This document shows, piece after piece, positions 12,577-17,389 of a DNA stretch of 64,000 nucleotides (positions are counted from its first letter, which is position 1; every line of letters begins with the position of its first letter). The notes beneath the pieces are model-generated. The model saw nothing but the letters and a program-made list of their open reading frames with translations, made no database searches and was not told where the DNA came from. The DNA comes from an uncultured Anaeroplasmataceae bacterium (GTDB taxonomy: Bacteria; Bacillota_I; Bacilli_A; Acholeplasmatales; Anaeroplasmataceae): the NCBI GenBank assembly GCA_949840955.1, contig CATKXV010000010.1, positions 1 to 64,000 of the forward strand. Direction: 5' to 3'. The translations under genes and the position numbers were made by a program.

Positions 12577-12602
12577 GACTTGTAATTTAGGGTTTTTCTT
12601 TT
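12558..12602 (+). terminator. Terminator of the antiporter gene
   Basis: A perfect 10-bp stem (12558-12567 with 12583-12592) is followed by TTTTTCTTTTT. The antiporter stop codon is in the loop. Confidence 0.85.
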
Positions 12603-12898
12603 TAACCTAAAACTTCATTGACTATGTCAGGAAATAACTCTATAAACTCCTTAGATGTCATTTCCTCATGGTCATATATCACTTTTTTAGTTGCTATAAA
12701 ACCAGTTTTCGTGTTAATGATAAGCTGATAGTCAAATACAGACTGTACGCCTCCATAGGGTAAAAGCTGCATGGTTATTGGTCCATAATACCGATAAACA
12801 TCAAGTAAAATGAGTTCTTTACCCTTATAGGCAGTATATAGATCTGTACCTATAGCTATTTCATTGTTAAAATCTACATTTTGATTTATAAATTGCAT
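12602..12898 (-). CDS. Hypothetical protein, 98 aa
   Basis: 98 aa, soluble, no signal peptide, not recognised. It has alternating short strands, including a GPITMQLLPYGG turn, and an acidic C-terminal helix (SKEFIELFPDIVNEVL), which reads like a small all-beta domain with one helix. It abuts the next upstream gene: its start codon is one base from that gene's stop codon, so the two are almost certainly co-translated. A role with the membrane protein upstream is inferred from context only. Confidence 0.7.
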   Translation of the reverse strand: MQFINQNVDFNNEIAIGTDLYTAYKGKELILLDVYRYYGPITMQLLPYGGVQSVFDYQLIINTKTGFIATKKVIYDHEEMTSKEFIELFPDIVNEVLG

Positions 12899-13750
12899 TT
12901 ATTTTCTTCCTTTGAATAATGTATTGAATGGTTCAGCCTCATAAGGAGGAACTAAAATTTGAAAAGCTTCAGAATTTAAATTTACCTCAATGCAAAAATA
13001 TGAATTTGCTTCAAAGTGTCTTATCGGAAACCTTCCTATTCTCACCTGATAAAATGATGGCTTCTCCTTCTTATGCCAAAGCTTAAAGGAATAGGTTTCG
13101 TTGACCTCTTCCACCTTTTTTATACTTTCTAGAGGGATTCCTATTACATCAAATAAATCAGCAAAGCATAGCATATCCTTTTCAATAAAAGCATTTAAAA
13201 CGACATTATGATATAGAATATGCTTAGGTTGATGAATTTCTGTATCCTTTTTTAGAACCTGATAGGATAAGACCTCCATTGAAACAGCATTTTCTGGAAC
13301 TCCTAGATATTCTTTAGATAGCTTTAAAATGGAATCAAAGATATCCTCCGCCTTATTTTGTGTTTTATCCTGTTTCATTTTTTTTCGGTAAACTTGTCCT
13401 AAAATTATGGAAAAAACCAAAATAACTAAGCTTATAAGAAAAATAATACAAAGCCATAAATTTTTCTTAAGAAACTCCTGAAAGCTGTTATGCTCATTGG
13501 AAATCAAAGCAACAGTAAGGAAAATAAAGCTCAAAAGGAACAAAGAAGTACATATGCGGCTTAAGGCATAAATCCACTTTGGCGGTAAAAGCCTTTGCCG
13601 GGTGGTTTGAAAGGATTTACTCATAGAATGAATCTTTTCCTCTTGTTTTTTGGATACCTGTCTAAGAATATATCTCTTATATTCAGGCTCTATCGTATTA
13701 TTTTTTTTATTTCCCACAATACAAAATAGATTTTTCAAATTCAATACCAC
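12899..13750 (-). CDS. Hypothetical membrane protein with two transmembrane helices
   Basis: Up to 283 aa. A basic N-terminal cytoplasmic segment, two adjacent membrane helices (roughly residues 63-83 and 96-118), and a cytoplasmic C-terminal domain of about 150 residues. The family is not recognised; the C-terminal part is strand-rich and may be a regulatory domain. The GTG start at 13750 overlaps an AAGGTGG ribosome site. A TTG four codons later is better spaced, so the true start may be at 13738. It sits 9 bases after the L15-like membrane gene, in the same operon. Confidence 0.65.
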   Translation of the reverse strand: MVLNLKNLFCIVGNKKNNTIEPEYKRYILRQVSKKQEEKIHSMSKSFQTTRQRLLPPKWIYALSRICTSLFLLSFIFLTVALISNEHNSFQEFLKKNLWLCIIFLISLVILVFSIILGQVYRKKMKQDKTQNKAEDIFDSILKLSKEYLGVPENAVSMEVLSYQVLKKDTEIHQPKHILYHNVVLNAFIEKDMLCFADLFDVIGIPLESIKKVEEVNETYSFKLWHKKEKPSFYQVRIGRFPIRHFEANSYFCIEVNLNSEAFQILVPPYEAEPFNTLFKGRK

Positions 13751-13759
13751 CTTTTATTC

Positions 13760-14905
13760 CTATTTGCTTCTTCTAGCTTCTCCACCTGTTAAAATAATCA
13801 TTTTTATCGCATCTAAGGAATAATCCTGTGCCTCTACAATTAAAGGCTTATCTAGGCTTCCTCTTGCCAAAACCTTGACATAGTCTACTTTAGCACCAAT
13901 CAGCTTCTTGTCCTTCAAGGCTTCTAAATTAACATAATCGTTTGGTTCAAATGCTTTAGACAAGGTATCAATGTTAATGATATCCTTTTTCGTATAAACT
14001 CTATCCGCCAAGCCCTCAACCTCTTCTACATATTCTAATACAGATTCATCTGTAATTAAGGTTTTTGCTTCTTGAATTGTTATATTCTTTCGAATAATAT
14101 CCTCCACATTAGCTTGCTTTAAAGTTACACCCTCTTCTATATCATCTGAGGTATATACTTTGATAAGATTTTCTTCAATCAATTCTTCCTTTGTTCGTTT
14201 AGGGATTATAATCTCCTCAGCTTCAATTTCTTTAGCCTCAAGATTTTCTCTTGCAAAAAGTAAATCAAATAGCTCTAATGCATATTTTTGTTTTCTTTCA
14301 GAAGATAATTTGATTAGTGTTGGAACCTTTACAAAACGTTTAATTTCACTTAAATCAATGATTCTATATTTGGTATCCTCAAATTCCTTTGGATCTAAAG
14401 CATAGGCAACACATAGCTTTTTTCCTTTAAATACAAGCATAGCGTAAGTATTTCTTCCTAAATAAATACGTTCCTGCTTCCAACTAATTGAGGTTTTTAC
14501 ACCATAGGATTTTACATAATGAATCAATTTTTTATATTCCTCTTGAACCTCTACTGAGGATAGGATAAGCTTTGCCTTAAAGCTATAATTATACTGTACA
14601 AAGATTTGTCTTCCATTGACAACCTCTACACTTCGTTCAGGCTGTTCCTCCTCTGTAAAGGATTCCTCTTCCTCCTGCTCCTCTTCTACTACTGGCTCAG
14701 GCTGAACTTCAGTGATATGTGGCTCCTGTTGGACAGGCTCAAGAATCTCCTTTGGTTCCTCTATCCTTGCTTCCTGGATGGATGATGCTTCTTTAAGCTT
14801 CTTATTTTTATTTTTACTTTTTCTAGAAACACAAAATACTAGTACTCCTAAAAGAAGAATGAATGCAGCAACTGCACCGATAATTATAATTTGTTCTGTA
14901 GTCAT
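13760..14905 (-). CDS. Membrane-anchored protein with ribosomal-protein-L15-like C-terminal domain
   Basis: 381 aa. One N-terminal membrane helix (5-26) and a basic stop-transfer (RKSKNKNKK). Then comes a glutamate-rich linker (47-92), an uncharacterised alpha/beta domain (about 102-218) and a middle segment with short helical repeats. The C-terminal domain (about 308-378) resembles the core of ribosomal protein L15 (KVLARG...PLIVEAQDYSLDA...ILTGG). Known biology gives no function for this arrangement, and the L15 resemblance is by eye. First gene of a three-gene operon of unknown envelope proteins, downstream of ligD. Confidence 0.75.
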   Translation of the reverse strand: MTTEQIIIIGAVAAFILLLGVLVFCVSRKSKNKNKKLKEASSIQEARIEEPKEILEPVQQEPHITEVQPEPVVEEEQEEEESFTEEEQPERSVEVVNGRQIFVQYNYSFKAKLILSSVEVQEEYKKLIHYVKSYGVKTSISWKQERIYLGRNTYAMLVFKGKKLCVAYALDPKEFEDTKYRIIDLSEIKRFVKVPTLIKLSSERKQKYALELFDLLFARENLEAKEIEAEEIIIPKRTKEELIEENLIKVYTSDDIEEGVTLKQANVEDIIRKNITIQEAKTLITDESVLEYVEEVEGLADRVYTKKDIINIDTLSKAFEPNDYVNLEALKDKKLIGAKVDYVKVLARGSLDKPLIVEAQDYSLDAIKMIILTGGEARRSK

Positions 14906-14981: not shown

Positions 14982-15926
14982 TTAAATTTCACGAATACAA
15001 TCTTTTGCCTCTTTATCAAAGCGTAATCCTTTCCATACAGGCTGCCTCATAGATTTGGCCTTTGTCTGCTGCATATAATGGGCTGTACCAACAAGCTCGG
15101 GTTTCATCCATATCACATTAGAAAATCCCTCTACTGTAGGTAAAGAAAGCCGATTGTTTTTAGCAAATTCTAGAATAAGTTCCTTTTCTTTTGCAGAAAT
15201 ACCTAGAAAAACCTTCCCACGATAGCAAAGCTGATAAGATGAATTATAATATCCCAGCAATAAATCCTTTAGCTTTCCTTCTTCATCCTGTTGATATCCT
15301 AATATAATTAAATCCTCATCCACCATAGCCTTTATTTTCTGCCAATCCTTCGTTCTTTTTCCAAAAAAATATAGGCTATTCTTTTTTTTGCCAACAATCC
15401 CCTCTAAGGAATTTTCCTTAACCAAATGAAAGAATTGAATTCCATTTTTAAATATAAATCGAGATAGGCTTATACTTTTATTTTCTTTAATACACTTAGA
15501 AAGAATTTCTTTTCTTTGAAGCAAGGGAAGCTTGGTTAAATCGGTATCATTTCTATAAAGAATATCAAACGCCACATAATGAACTGGAAGACGCTGGCTT
15601 GCTATTCTTATTTTAAAGGGGTCTGACATAAGACTTCTTTTTTGTAAACTAAAGAAATCAGGCTTTCCATTTTTTAATACAATGATTTCTCCATCCAAAA
15701 TTACAGTATCCTTCGTACTTGTCATAATATCTGCTAATTCTGGATAAATTTCTGTTACATCCTTATTCCTTTTATTTCTTAGGGACAAAGACTTTTGTCC
15801 TATATAAGCAATACATCTTATTCCATCTAGCTTTAATTCAAAGATAGAATCCTCATCATCATAGGGCTCTACCTCATGGGAAATAAGCATAGGCAGGATG
15901 CTTTTATCTTGAAAAAGATTAGGCAT
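14982..15926 (-). CDS. ligD: ATP-dependent DNA ligase of the NHEJ pathway (stand-alone ligase domain)
   Basis: 314 aa. Seals double-strand breaks with Ku. Contains the nucleotidyltransferase motif I ELKLDGIR (Lys32 is adenylated), motif IV EGIVGKK, motif V WQKIK, and a C-terminal OB fold. The primase-polymerase and 3'-phosphoesterase domains of full-length LigD are absent, so end processing must come from elsewhere. Its start overlaps the end of ku by 8 bases. Such pairs often act in spores, where no second chromosome is available for recombination; that link is inference here. Confidence 0.92.
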   Translation of the reverse strand: MPNLFQDKSILPMLISHEVEPYDDEDSIFELKLDGIRCIAYIGQKSLSLRNKRNKDVTEIYPELADIMTSTKDTVILDGEIIVLKNGKPDFFSLQKRSLMSDPFKIRIASQRLPVHYVAFDILYRNDTDLTKLPLLQRKEILSKCIKENKSISLSRFIFKNGIQFFHLVKENSLEGIVGKKKNSLYFFGKRTKDWQKIKAMVDEDLIILGYQQDEEGKLKDLLLGYYNSSYQLCYRGKVFLGISAKEKELILEFAKNNRLSLPTVEGFSNVIWMKPELVGTAHYMQQTKAKSMRQPVWKGLRFDKEAKDCIREI

Positions 15927-16734
15927 TTGCTCTTGGCCGTTCCTTTTTCTTTGGAGGAACTATCCTTTTTTTGGGAGCGGAATACTCATCTAGGCTTGCC
16001 TTTAATGCATCCATTAAATCCGTTATTTTAGGTTCTGCTTCATGAGATGCTGAAATGATTTCCTTTCCTTGGATTTTCTCCTGAATGGCATGCTCTAATC
16101 TCTTCTTATACTCATCCTGATAGCTTTCTATTTCTAAAGGCGCACTCATTTGTGAAATCAAGCTTTTTGCCAGCTTCAATTCAGAGGCTTTAACCTCTTC
16201 TTGGATATCCTTGCATGGATTTTTTTTGATTTGAGAAGAAAAGAACAGGGTATTTAATAGCATTTGCCCATCCTTACTTCTCAATAATATCAGCGTTTCC
16301 TTATTCCCTAATATTGTTTTTGCAATACCAGCCTTTTGCTCTTCAGCCATTGCCTCAAGAAGAAGCTGAAATGCTTTTTCTCCACCTGTTGGAACAACAT
16401 AATATGCTTTATCATAGTAGATGGGATCAATCTCATTGAGATAAACAAATTGTTCAATGGTTATGCTTTTATCCTTAGGTGTCTTTATTTTTTCAAAATC
16501 CTCCTCATCAAAAAGAACAAATTTGCCCTCCTCATATTCAAACCCCTTTATAATATCCTCATTTCGAATTTCCTTTTCTGCACAATCGACACAGGTTTTT
16601 TTATACTTTACCCTACTTTTTGTCTTTTTTTCTAGGAGCTTAAAGGAAATTGAATTGTCCATAATTGCTGCATGAAGCGTAATAGGAATATAGACCAATC
16701 CAAAGCTTATGCTTCCCTTATAGCTATATGCCAT
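15919..16734 (-). CDS. ku: Ku protein, DNA end-binding
   Basis: 271 aa. Homodimeric ring protein that binds DNA ends and recruits LigD. It opens with MAYSYKGSISFGLVYIPI, the usual Ku N-terminus, and keeps CVDC(x2)E, the YYVVPTGGEKAF segment and a lysine-rich tail. A longer frame would start at 16770, but ATG 16734 has an ideal GAGGTG site 7 bases upstream and gives the family start. First gene of the ku-ligD pair. In Bacillus these genes are under SigG control; sigG lies in this window, but I see no clear SigG promoter here. Confidence 0.94.
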   Translation of the reverse strand: MAYSYKGSISFGLVYIPITLHAAIMDNSISFKLLEKKTKSRVKYKKTCVDCAEKEIRNEDIIKGFEYEEGKFVLFDEEDFEKIKTPKDKSITIEQFVYLNEIDPIYYDKAYYVVPTGGEKAFQLLLEAMAEEQKAGIAKTILGNKETLILLRSKDGQMLLNTLFFSSQIKKNPCKDIQEEVKASELKLAKSLISQMSAPLEIESYQDEYKKRLEHAIQEKIQGKEIISASHEAEPKITDLMDALKASLDEYSAPKKRIVPPKKKERPRANA

Positions 16735-16801
16735 TGGAATCACCTCTTTTTTATTTTTACCCAATTTCAATTTTTTAAAAAGAAAAATAGCAGGTTTTCT
16801 G

Positions 16802-17389
16802 CTATTCTTCTATATTTTGTTCAATTTTTTCTAAAACAAGATTAATACCTAATTTTGTTTCAGAGGAGGTTAAAATAAAATCATCTCCAGGCAGTAGCTC
16901 CAGAGCCTCCAATATTATTTTTTTATTTTTACCATATTCACTTTTCTTTACCTTGTCTGCCTTTGTTGCTAAAACACAAACCTTTTTATCATAATACTTT
17001 AAATATTTATACATCGTTATATCATCTTGAGTTGGCTTATGTCTAAAATCAACAAGTAAAAAGGCCACCTTCAGCTGTTTGCTGTGAACAATATAATCCT
17101 CTATCATTTTTCCAAAGGATGCCTTCACTGTTTTTGATACATTGGCATAGCCGTATCCTGGAACATCTATAAAATAAAAGGAATCATTTAGATAATAAAT
17201 ATTAAGGGTTTGTGTCTTTCCAGGGTTTGATGAGGTCTTGGCTAGCTTTTTTCGATTGGTTAATGCATTAATAAAAGAAGATTTTCCAACATTTGATCTA
17301 CCACAGAACATAAACTCGGATTGAAGATGTACGGGGATTCCCTCATATTTTACTGCTGATTTAACAAATTCTGCTTTTGTAATTACCAT
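16802..17389 (-). CDS. engB: Ribosome-biogenesis GTPase YsxC/EngB
   Basis: 195 aa. Essential GTPase for large-subunit assembly. G1 GRSNVGKS, G3 DVPGYG, G4 TKADK and the C-terminal TSS G5 are visible, with the NPGKTQT switch region. Length is typical. The start overlaps the stop of the upstream PHP gene by 7 bases, showing translational coupling; the ribosome site is correspondingly weak. Confidence 0.95.
   Translation of the reverse strand: MVITKAEFVKSAVKYEGIPVHLQSEFMFCGRSNVGKSSFINALTNRKKLAKTSSNPGKTQTLNIYYLNDSFYFIDVPGYGYANVSKTVKASFGKMIEDYIVHSKQLKVAFLLVDFRHKPTQDDITMYKYLKYYDKKVCVLATKADKVKKSEYGKNKKIILEALELLPGDDFILTSSETKLGINLVLEKIEQNIEE

Follow-up and report, generated by a model that had tools for sequence, protein, structure and literature searches.

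A predicted membrane protein joining a uL15-type domain to a basic module of an apparently undescribed family in a gut relative of Anaeroplasma

The window, a stretch of 64,000 nucleotides, comes from a gut bacterium related to Anaeroplasma. On its minus strand lies an ORF of 381 codons plus stop at 13760-14905, with an ATG start and a GGGAGG-type ribosome-binding site about 9 bases 5' of it. The product (381 aa; 13760..14905) consists of a transmembrane helix, an acidic linker, a middle domain that we call M and an L15-like domain. The hydrophobic helix (residues ~5-28; 14822..14893) is followed by a Lys/Arg cluster, and the C-terminus is predicted to lie inside, from the sequence and from a positive-inside count of 83/103 in the family. 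The next 68 residues, 29-96 (14618..14821), form a Glu/Pro linker with a counted net charge of -12. Both the helix and the Glu-rich linker, which the initial annotation had named, can be read directly in the sequence. M (residues ~97-253; 14147..14617) has a basic core and a YjbR/YdhG-like double-wing or frataxin-like predicted fold. A conserved pre-L15 segment (residues ~254-308; 13982..14146), over much of which model confidence was lower, leads to the uL15-type C-terminal domain (residues 309-377; 13775..13981), which was recognized by profile and predicted structure. Within the N-terminal part, Pfam matches that stayed below their cut-offs, for example to PepSY_TM_like_2, SCIMP and PH, were taken as chance.

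The neighbouring genes are on the same minus strand. The next gene (12899..13750) encodes 283 aa with two hydrophobic stretches by eye and no accepted Pfam match, and the second following gene (12602..12898) encodes 98 aa with no Pfam match. Both were kept downstream in six of six same-genus orthologous loci (L031-L036). A gene for a YsxC/EngB-like GTPase lies at 16802..17389; YsxC is a GTPase of 50S assembly. In all four of the same-genus loci with upstream sequence, ysxC stood directly 5' of the orthologue, whereas in the window the genes of a non-homologous end joining pair, Ku and the ATP-dependent DNA ligase LigD (14982-16770), come between. Their absence from this place in those four loci suggests a lineage-specific insertion or loss, and Ku/LigD was dropped as a candidate partner because it is not beside the gene there. 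The other same-genus loci with M and the L15-like domain, L037 and L040, did not share the neighbourhood of L031-L036.

The initial annotation had placed an L15-like stretch at residues 308-378, and the range was right. Residues 309-377 matched Pfam PF00828 (Ribosomal_L27A: L15/L18e/L27A) with an E-value of 1.3e-11 and 45.2 bits, above the curated membership cut-off of 21.5 bits. A 19-row profile of the domain reached the uL15 chains of solved ribosomes in the PDB with an E-value of 1.3e-13. In the model of residues 95-381 (pLDDT 83.4, pTM 0.56), the predicted L15-like structure resembled uL15 with a Foldseek probability of 1.00 and an E-value of 2.7e-5, and the VIA comparison with uL15 gave a Z of 11.7 and an rmsd of 3.4 over 80 residues. 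The profile comparison with L15/L18e and the structure prediction, both of which had been proposed as checks, gave a significant match and a uL15 fold, not a different one. Residues 309-377 are a true uL15-type domain, far beyond chance.

The product of 13760-14905 is not ribosomal protein L15, since rplO is encoded elsewhere in the genome and the N-terminal half of L15 is missing. The match to TIGR01071 (rplO) covered positions 71-142 only (E 4.9e-10), and its 39.4 bits missed the equivalog cut-off of 77.95. A full rplO with 179.6 bits was found on another contig of the same genome, and the PF00828 search of the genome returned exactly two places, rplO and the gene at 13760-14905. Among 60 relatives, 55 had an rplO match above the cut-off. 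The separate rplO and the shortened domain ruled out a duplicate rplO. When 50 rplO domains were compared with 56 L15-like domains, N311, K344, L346, G349, K353, S363, A366, G374 and G375 were common to both sets. The rplO lysines at 358 and 361 were mostly replaced by Glu and Asp, respectively, in the L15-like set, those at 337 and 354 were largely gone, and R348, D352, K368 and M369 were characteristic of the L15-like set. The mean net charge was -1.0 for the L15-like domain (40 distinct) compared with +1.2 for the rplO domain (26 distinct). RNA binding may thus have been lost from the L15-like domain, as far as the sequence can suggest. A tree of the 56 L15-like and 50 rplO domains over 70 columns left a single origin unsettled (group support 48/0, 56% of bootstrap trees).

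The middle domain, which had been called unknown, has no Pfam or NCBIfam family: 23 M sequences searched against both gave nothing convincing (best E 0.0022 and 0.0043), including no Pfam match to the YjbR/MmcQ, YdhG/DUF1801 or frataxin families in the 23 rows and no NCBIfam match to them. The M profile had only two matches among PDB sequences, with E-values of 0.32 and 0.37. The window's M, as modelled by AlphaFold (pLDDT 93.3, pTM 0.86), resembled YjbR (2fki) with a Foldseek probability of 1.00 and an E-value of 2.9e-3; VIA gave a Z of 8.5 and an rmsd of 3.0 over 94 residues. Further Z values were 8.3 for PSPTO_3016, 7.7-7.8 for YdhG-like proteins, 7.0 for the MotA C-terminal domain and about 6 for frataxins. 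Judged by the model, M is likely to be homologous to the YjbR/YdhG-type fold, although a Z near 8 may also reflect a common arrangement, and a remote homology to the YjbR/MmcQ, YdhG/DUF1801 or frataxin families is possible. YjbR is described as a double-wing, CyaY-like fold with possible DNA binding (PMC7641849). The M core is strongly basic, with a mean charge of +10.1 (n = 151 copies) and +8 in the window's copy (residues 103-227), compared with -0.8 (sd 6.4) in 600 segments taken from other ORFs; a charge of +10 is reached by 4% of these segments. K112, R151, K162 and K199 are basic positions that are widely retained.

In the first search, 49 genomes out of 60 related ones gave a match, a number that takes in those with rplO-only matches. 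In a sample of 295 genomes from the phylum of the window, the M profile found M in 49. G335, the genome behind L091, which is a MAG titled Clostridia, was the only one of 398 genomes of its phylum with M, and M was present in 126 of 297 genomes of its order. The named records comprise MAGs titled Anaeroplasma, Anaeroplasmataceae, Acholeplasmatales, Mollicutes, Clostridia and Eubacteriales, and the window's genome has six M copies over four ORFs. Among the fetched loci there were 129 distinct M ORFs, counted after rows with identical last 120 residues were dropped. The L15-like domain was present in 54 of them, always after M, and absent from 75. Apart from the 50 rplO, M was missing from only two L15-type ORFs: that of L172 and that of L063, which is cut where its contig ends. 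Most of the listed copies were open, with no internal stops.

A helix was predicted by a hydropathy rule in 104 of the 129 M ORFs, some of which were cut at the ends of the fetched stretch, and M came after the helix in 103 of these; the other 25 had no predicted helix, some possibly because they were cut. Lys and Arg were more numerous after the last helix than before it in 83 of the 103, equal in nine and fewer in 11. This excess places M inside in most, so that by the positive-inside rule M would be on the cytoplasmic side in the majority of these 103. Some members are built otherwise. The proteins of L057-L061 and L065-L068 are polytopic, with ~745-881 aa and ~9-12 predicted helices, and end in M and the L15-like domain; the one of them that was scanned, L059, had no Pfam match. 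In the window's genome, L072:5053-5886 (+) encodes an apparently soluble M followed by a CBM20 starch-binding domain, with no predicted helix.

The genes upstream of M were then compared with control ORFs of the same loci. An upstream ORF that could be read, lay on the same strand and reached 300 aa or more was available for 36 M genes; it was of surface type in 19 of them, compared with 4 of 136 control ORFs. Surface type was defined by hydropathy as a C-terminal helix with no internal helix, and many upstream ORFs were truncated by the fetched flank. The Fisher p of 5.5e-12 is smaller than it should be and overstates independence, the loci being related. The gaps between surface ORF and M gene were -34 to +16 bp, and 17 of the 36 M genes had no surface-type upstream neighbour. 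A looser list, drawn from 114 M ORFs below 850 aa, gave 31 upstream neighbours, several of these being ordinary genes such as ABC-type or membrane proteins. The surface link is carried mainly by M members without the L15-like domain, since only L210 and L212 among the 19 cases have both. In addition, M shares one ORF with Flg_new repeats in L052 and with MBG_2 repeats in L092, and the 1135-aa ORF of L090 has a long N-terminal part without Pfam names ahead of its helices. The surface ORF adjacent to M in L050 had a BspA-LRR match, and in the window's genome a paralogue with three M domains (L071) overlaps with a surface ORF that is 2031 aa long or longer. Another paralogue of this genome, L073:2923-5841 (+), is an EAL protein that ends in M; it also has a GGDEF region, degenerate-looking by eye, and a charged stretch resembling a coiled coil. 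Its overlap with the adjacent surface ORF, which is cadherin-like and no shorter than 974 aa, is 4 bp. An EAL domain was present in one of nine family proteins scanned; L078 and L079, outside the nine, are similar. No giant surface gene lies beside 13760-14905 in the window, and this is the main weakness in extending the family reading to the window's member.

We tentatively favour the reading that the protein is an inside-facing membrane partner, in which the basic M holds an acidic partner and the L15-like domain is an added head, within a family that serves surface and membrane proteins. The family would be centred on M and would accompany surface-exposed or polytopic membrane proteins, M often being encoded immediately behind a giant adhesin-like protein and at times forming that protein's cytoplasmic tail. 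M might grip an acidic partner in the cytoplasm (nucleic acid, ribosome, acidic protein or acidic membrane lipid), and this grip could position the surface protein or couple it. The C-terminal domain of uL15 would have departed from the ribosome to become an optional extra binding head. We infer the coupling, and likewise every binding partner of M and of the L15-like part, from this arrangement. Were M a narrow anchor, the EAL protein with M and the M beside CBM20 would be left unexplained.

The combination of an L15-like fold with a membrane anchor had first been taken to suggest RNA binding or ribosome docking at the membrane. The combination stood up by profile, predicted structure and sequence, while the overall interpretation was supported in part. 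A membrane dock, in which the L15-like domain, M or both bind rRNA or the 50S subunit, for example while very long surface proteins are exported co-translationally, would fit the retained uL15 fold with K344, G349, K353, S363, A366 and the Gly pair, the strongly basic M with its double-wing-like predicted fold, the pairing with giant surface proteins and the orthologues adjoining ysxC. But the rplO that is present should take up the ribosomal site of L15; moreover, Glu and Asp replace the rplO lysines at 358 and 361, the N-terminal half of L15 is absent and 75 of the 129 M ORFs do without the L15-like domain, and we consider such a dock unlikely. If a nucleic acid or ribosome is held, M is a better candidate for it than the L15-like part. 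A related reading, in which M and the ex-ribosomal uL15 domain make a membrane-tethered grip on ribosomes or their mRNA, co-encoded with very long surface proteins so that these would be both made and exported at their place of display, seems quite improbable to us. We also give little weight to a sensor of ribosome assembly or translation, in which the L15-like domain, as a mimic of uL15, would bind one of its partners or an assembly factor such as YsxC and so link 50S maturation to the envelope. The upstream ysxC in four of four same-genus loci is consistent with it, as are a Lon-type protease ORF (by eye) and ysxC preceding the M and L15-like ORF of L090 (in a MAG titled Clostridia), yet no ysxC neighbours L037, L040 or most of the wider loci, and the gene may simply be a stable neighbour.

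Signalling was also considered, with M as an input or output domain on diverse membrane proteins and the surface adjacency reflecting adhesin regulation, as in the release of adhesins under c-di-GMP. The layout of L073 speaks for this, but with EAL in just one of the nine proteins scanned we regard it as rather improbable. We find it scarcely credible that the domain is simply ribosomal L15, duplicated or decayed, without a new role: its L15 homology is clear, but it is kept with M across genera, it has the family-specific R348, D352, K368 and M369, and internal stops are lacking in most of the listed copies.

The literature search, with most subscription papers and all preprints outside its scope, found neither a report of membrane proteins with an L15 domain nor a description of the M family. 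The M family is apparently undescribed, and the protein apparently presents known folds in an undescribed arrangement. The reuse of a core ribosomal-protein domain on a membrane protein is unusual, and the L15 homology could lead automatic annotation to label such proteins ribosomal. M is an apparently unnamed module of gut bacteria of the Acholeplasmatales type and of one order of MAGs titled Clostridia. It offers a handle on how surface proteins are held or controlled from inside in such bacteria, some of which are wall-less. One study takes Anaeroplasmataceae as a reference family deficient in peptidoglycan and gives 40-60% as the share of its genomes that have peptidoglycan genes (PMC10868615). 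The window's genome had a MurG-like match under the cut-off (165.8 compared with 250.25).

Compared with known systems, the protein differs from ribosomal uL15 (rplO) in that its L15-like domain lacks the N-terminal half, is membrane-anchored and is joined to M. The predicted fold of M is similar to those of YjbR (DUF419), YdhG (DUF1801), frataxin/CyaY and the T4 MotA double wing, and M is set apart from the YjbR, YdhG and frataxin families by its highly basic character and its place mostly on membrane proteins. Giant surface proteins of Gram-positive bacteria that bear MBG, Flg_new, BspA-LRR or cadherin-like repeats adjoin M proteins or are fused with them; their known domain names describe the outside part only, and the M and L15-like end is named only by PF00828. 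In systems of the LapD type, adhesins are under the control of c-di-GMP. L073 is like these in having a membrane EAL protein beside an adhesin-like gene, a likeness seen in the gene layout alone, and unlike them in having M at the place of the known output.
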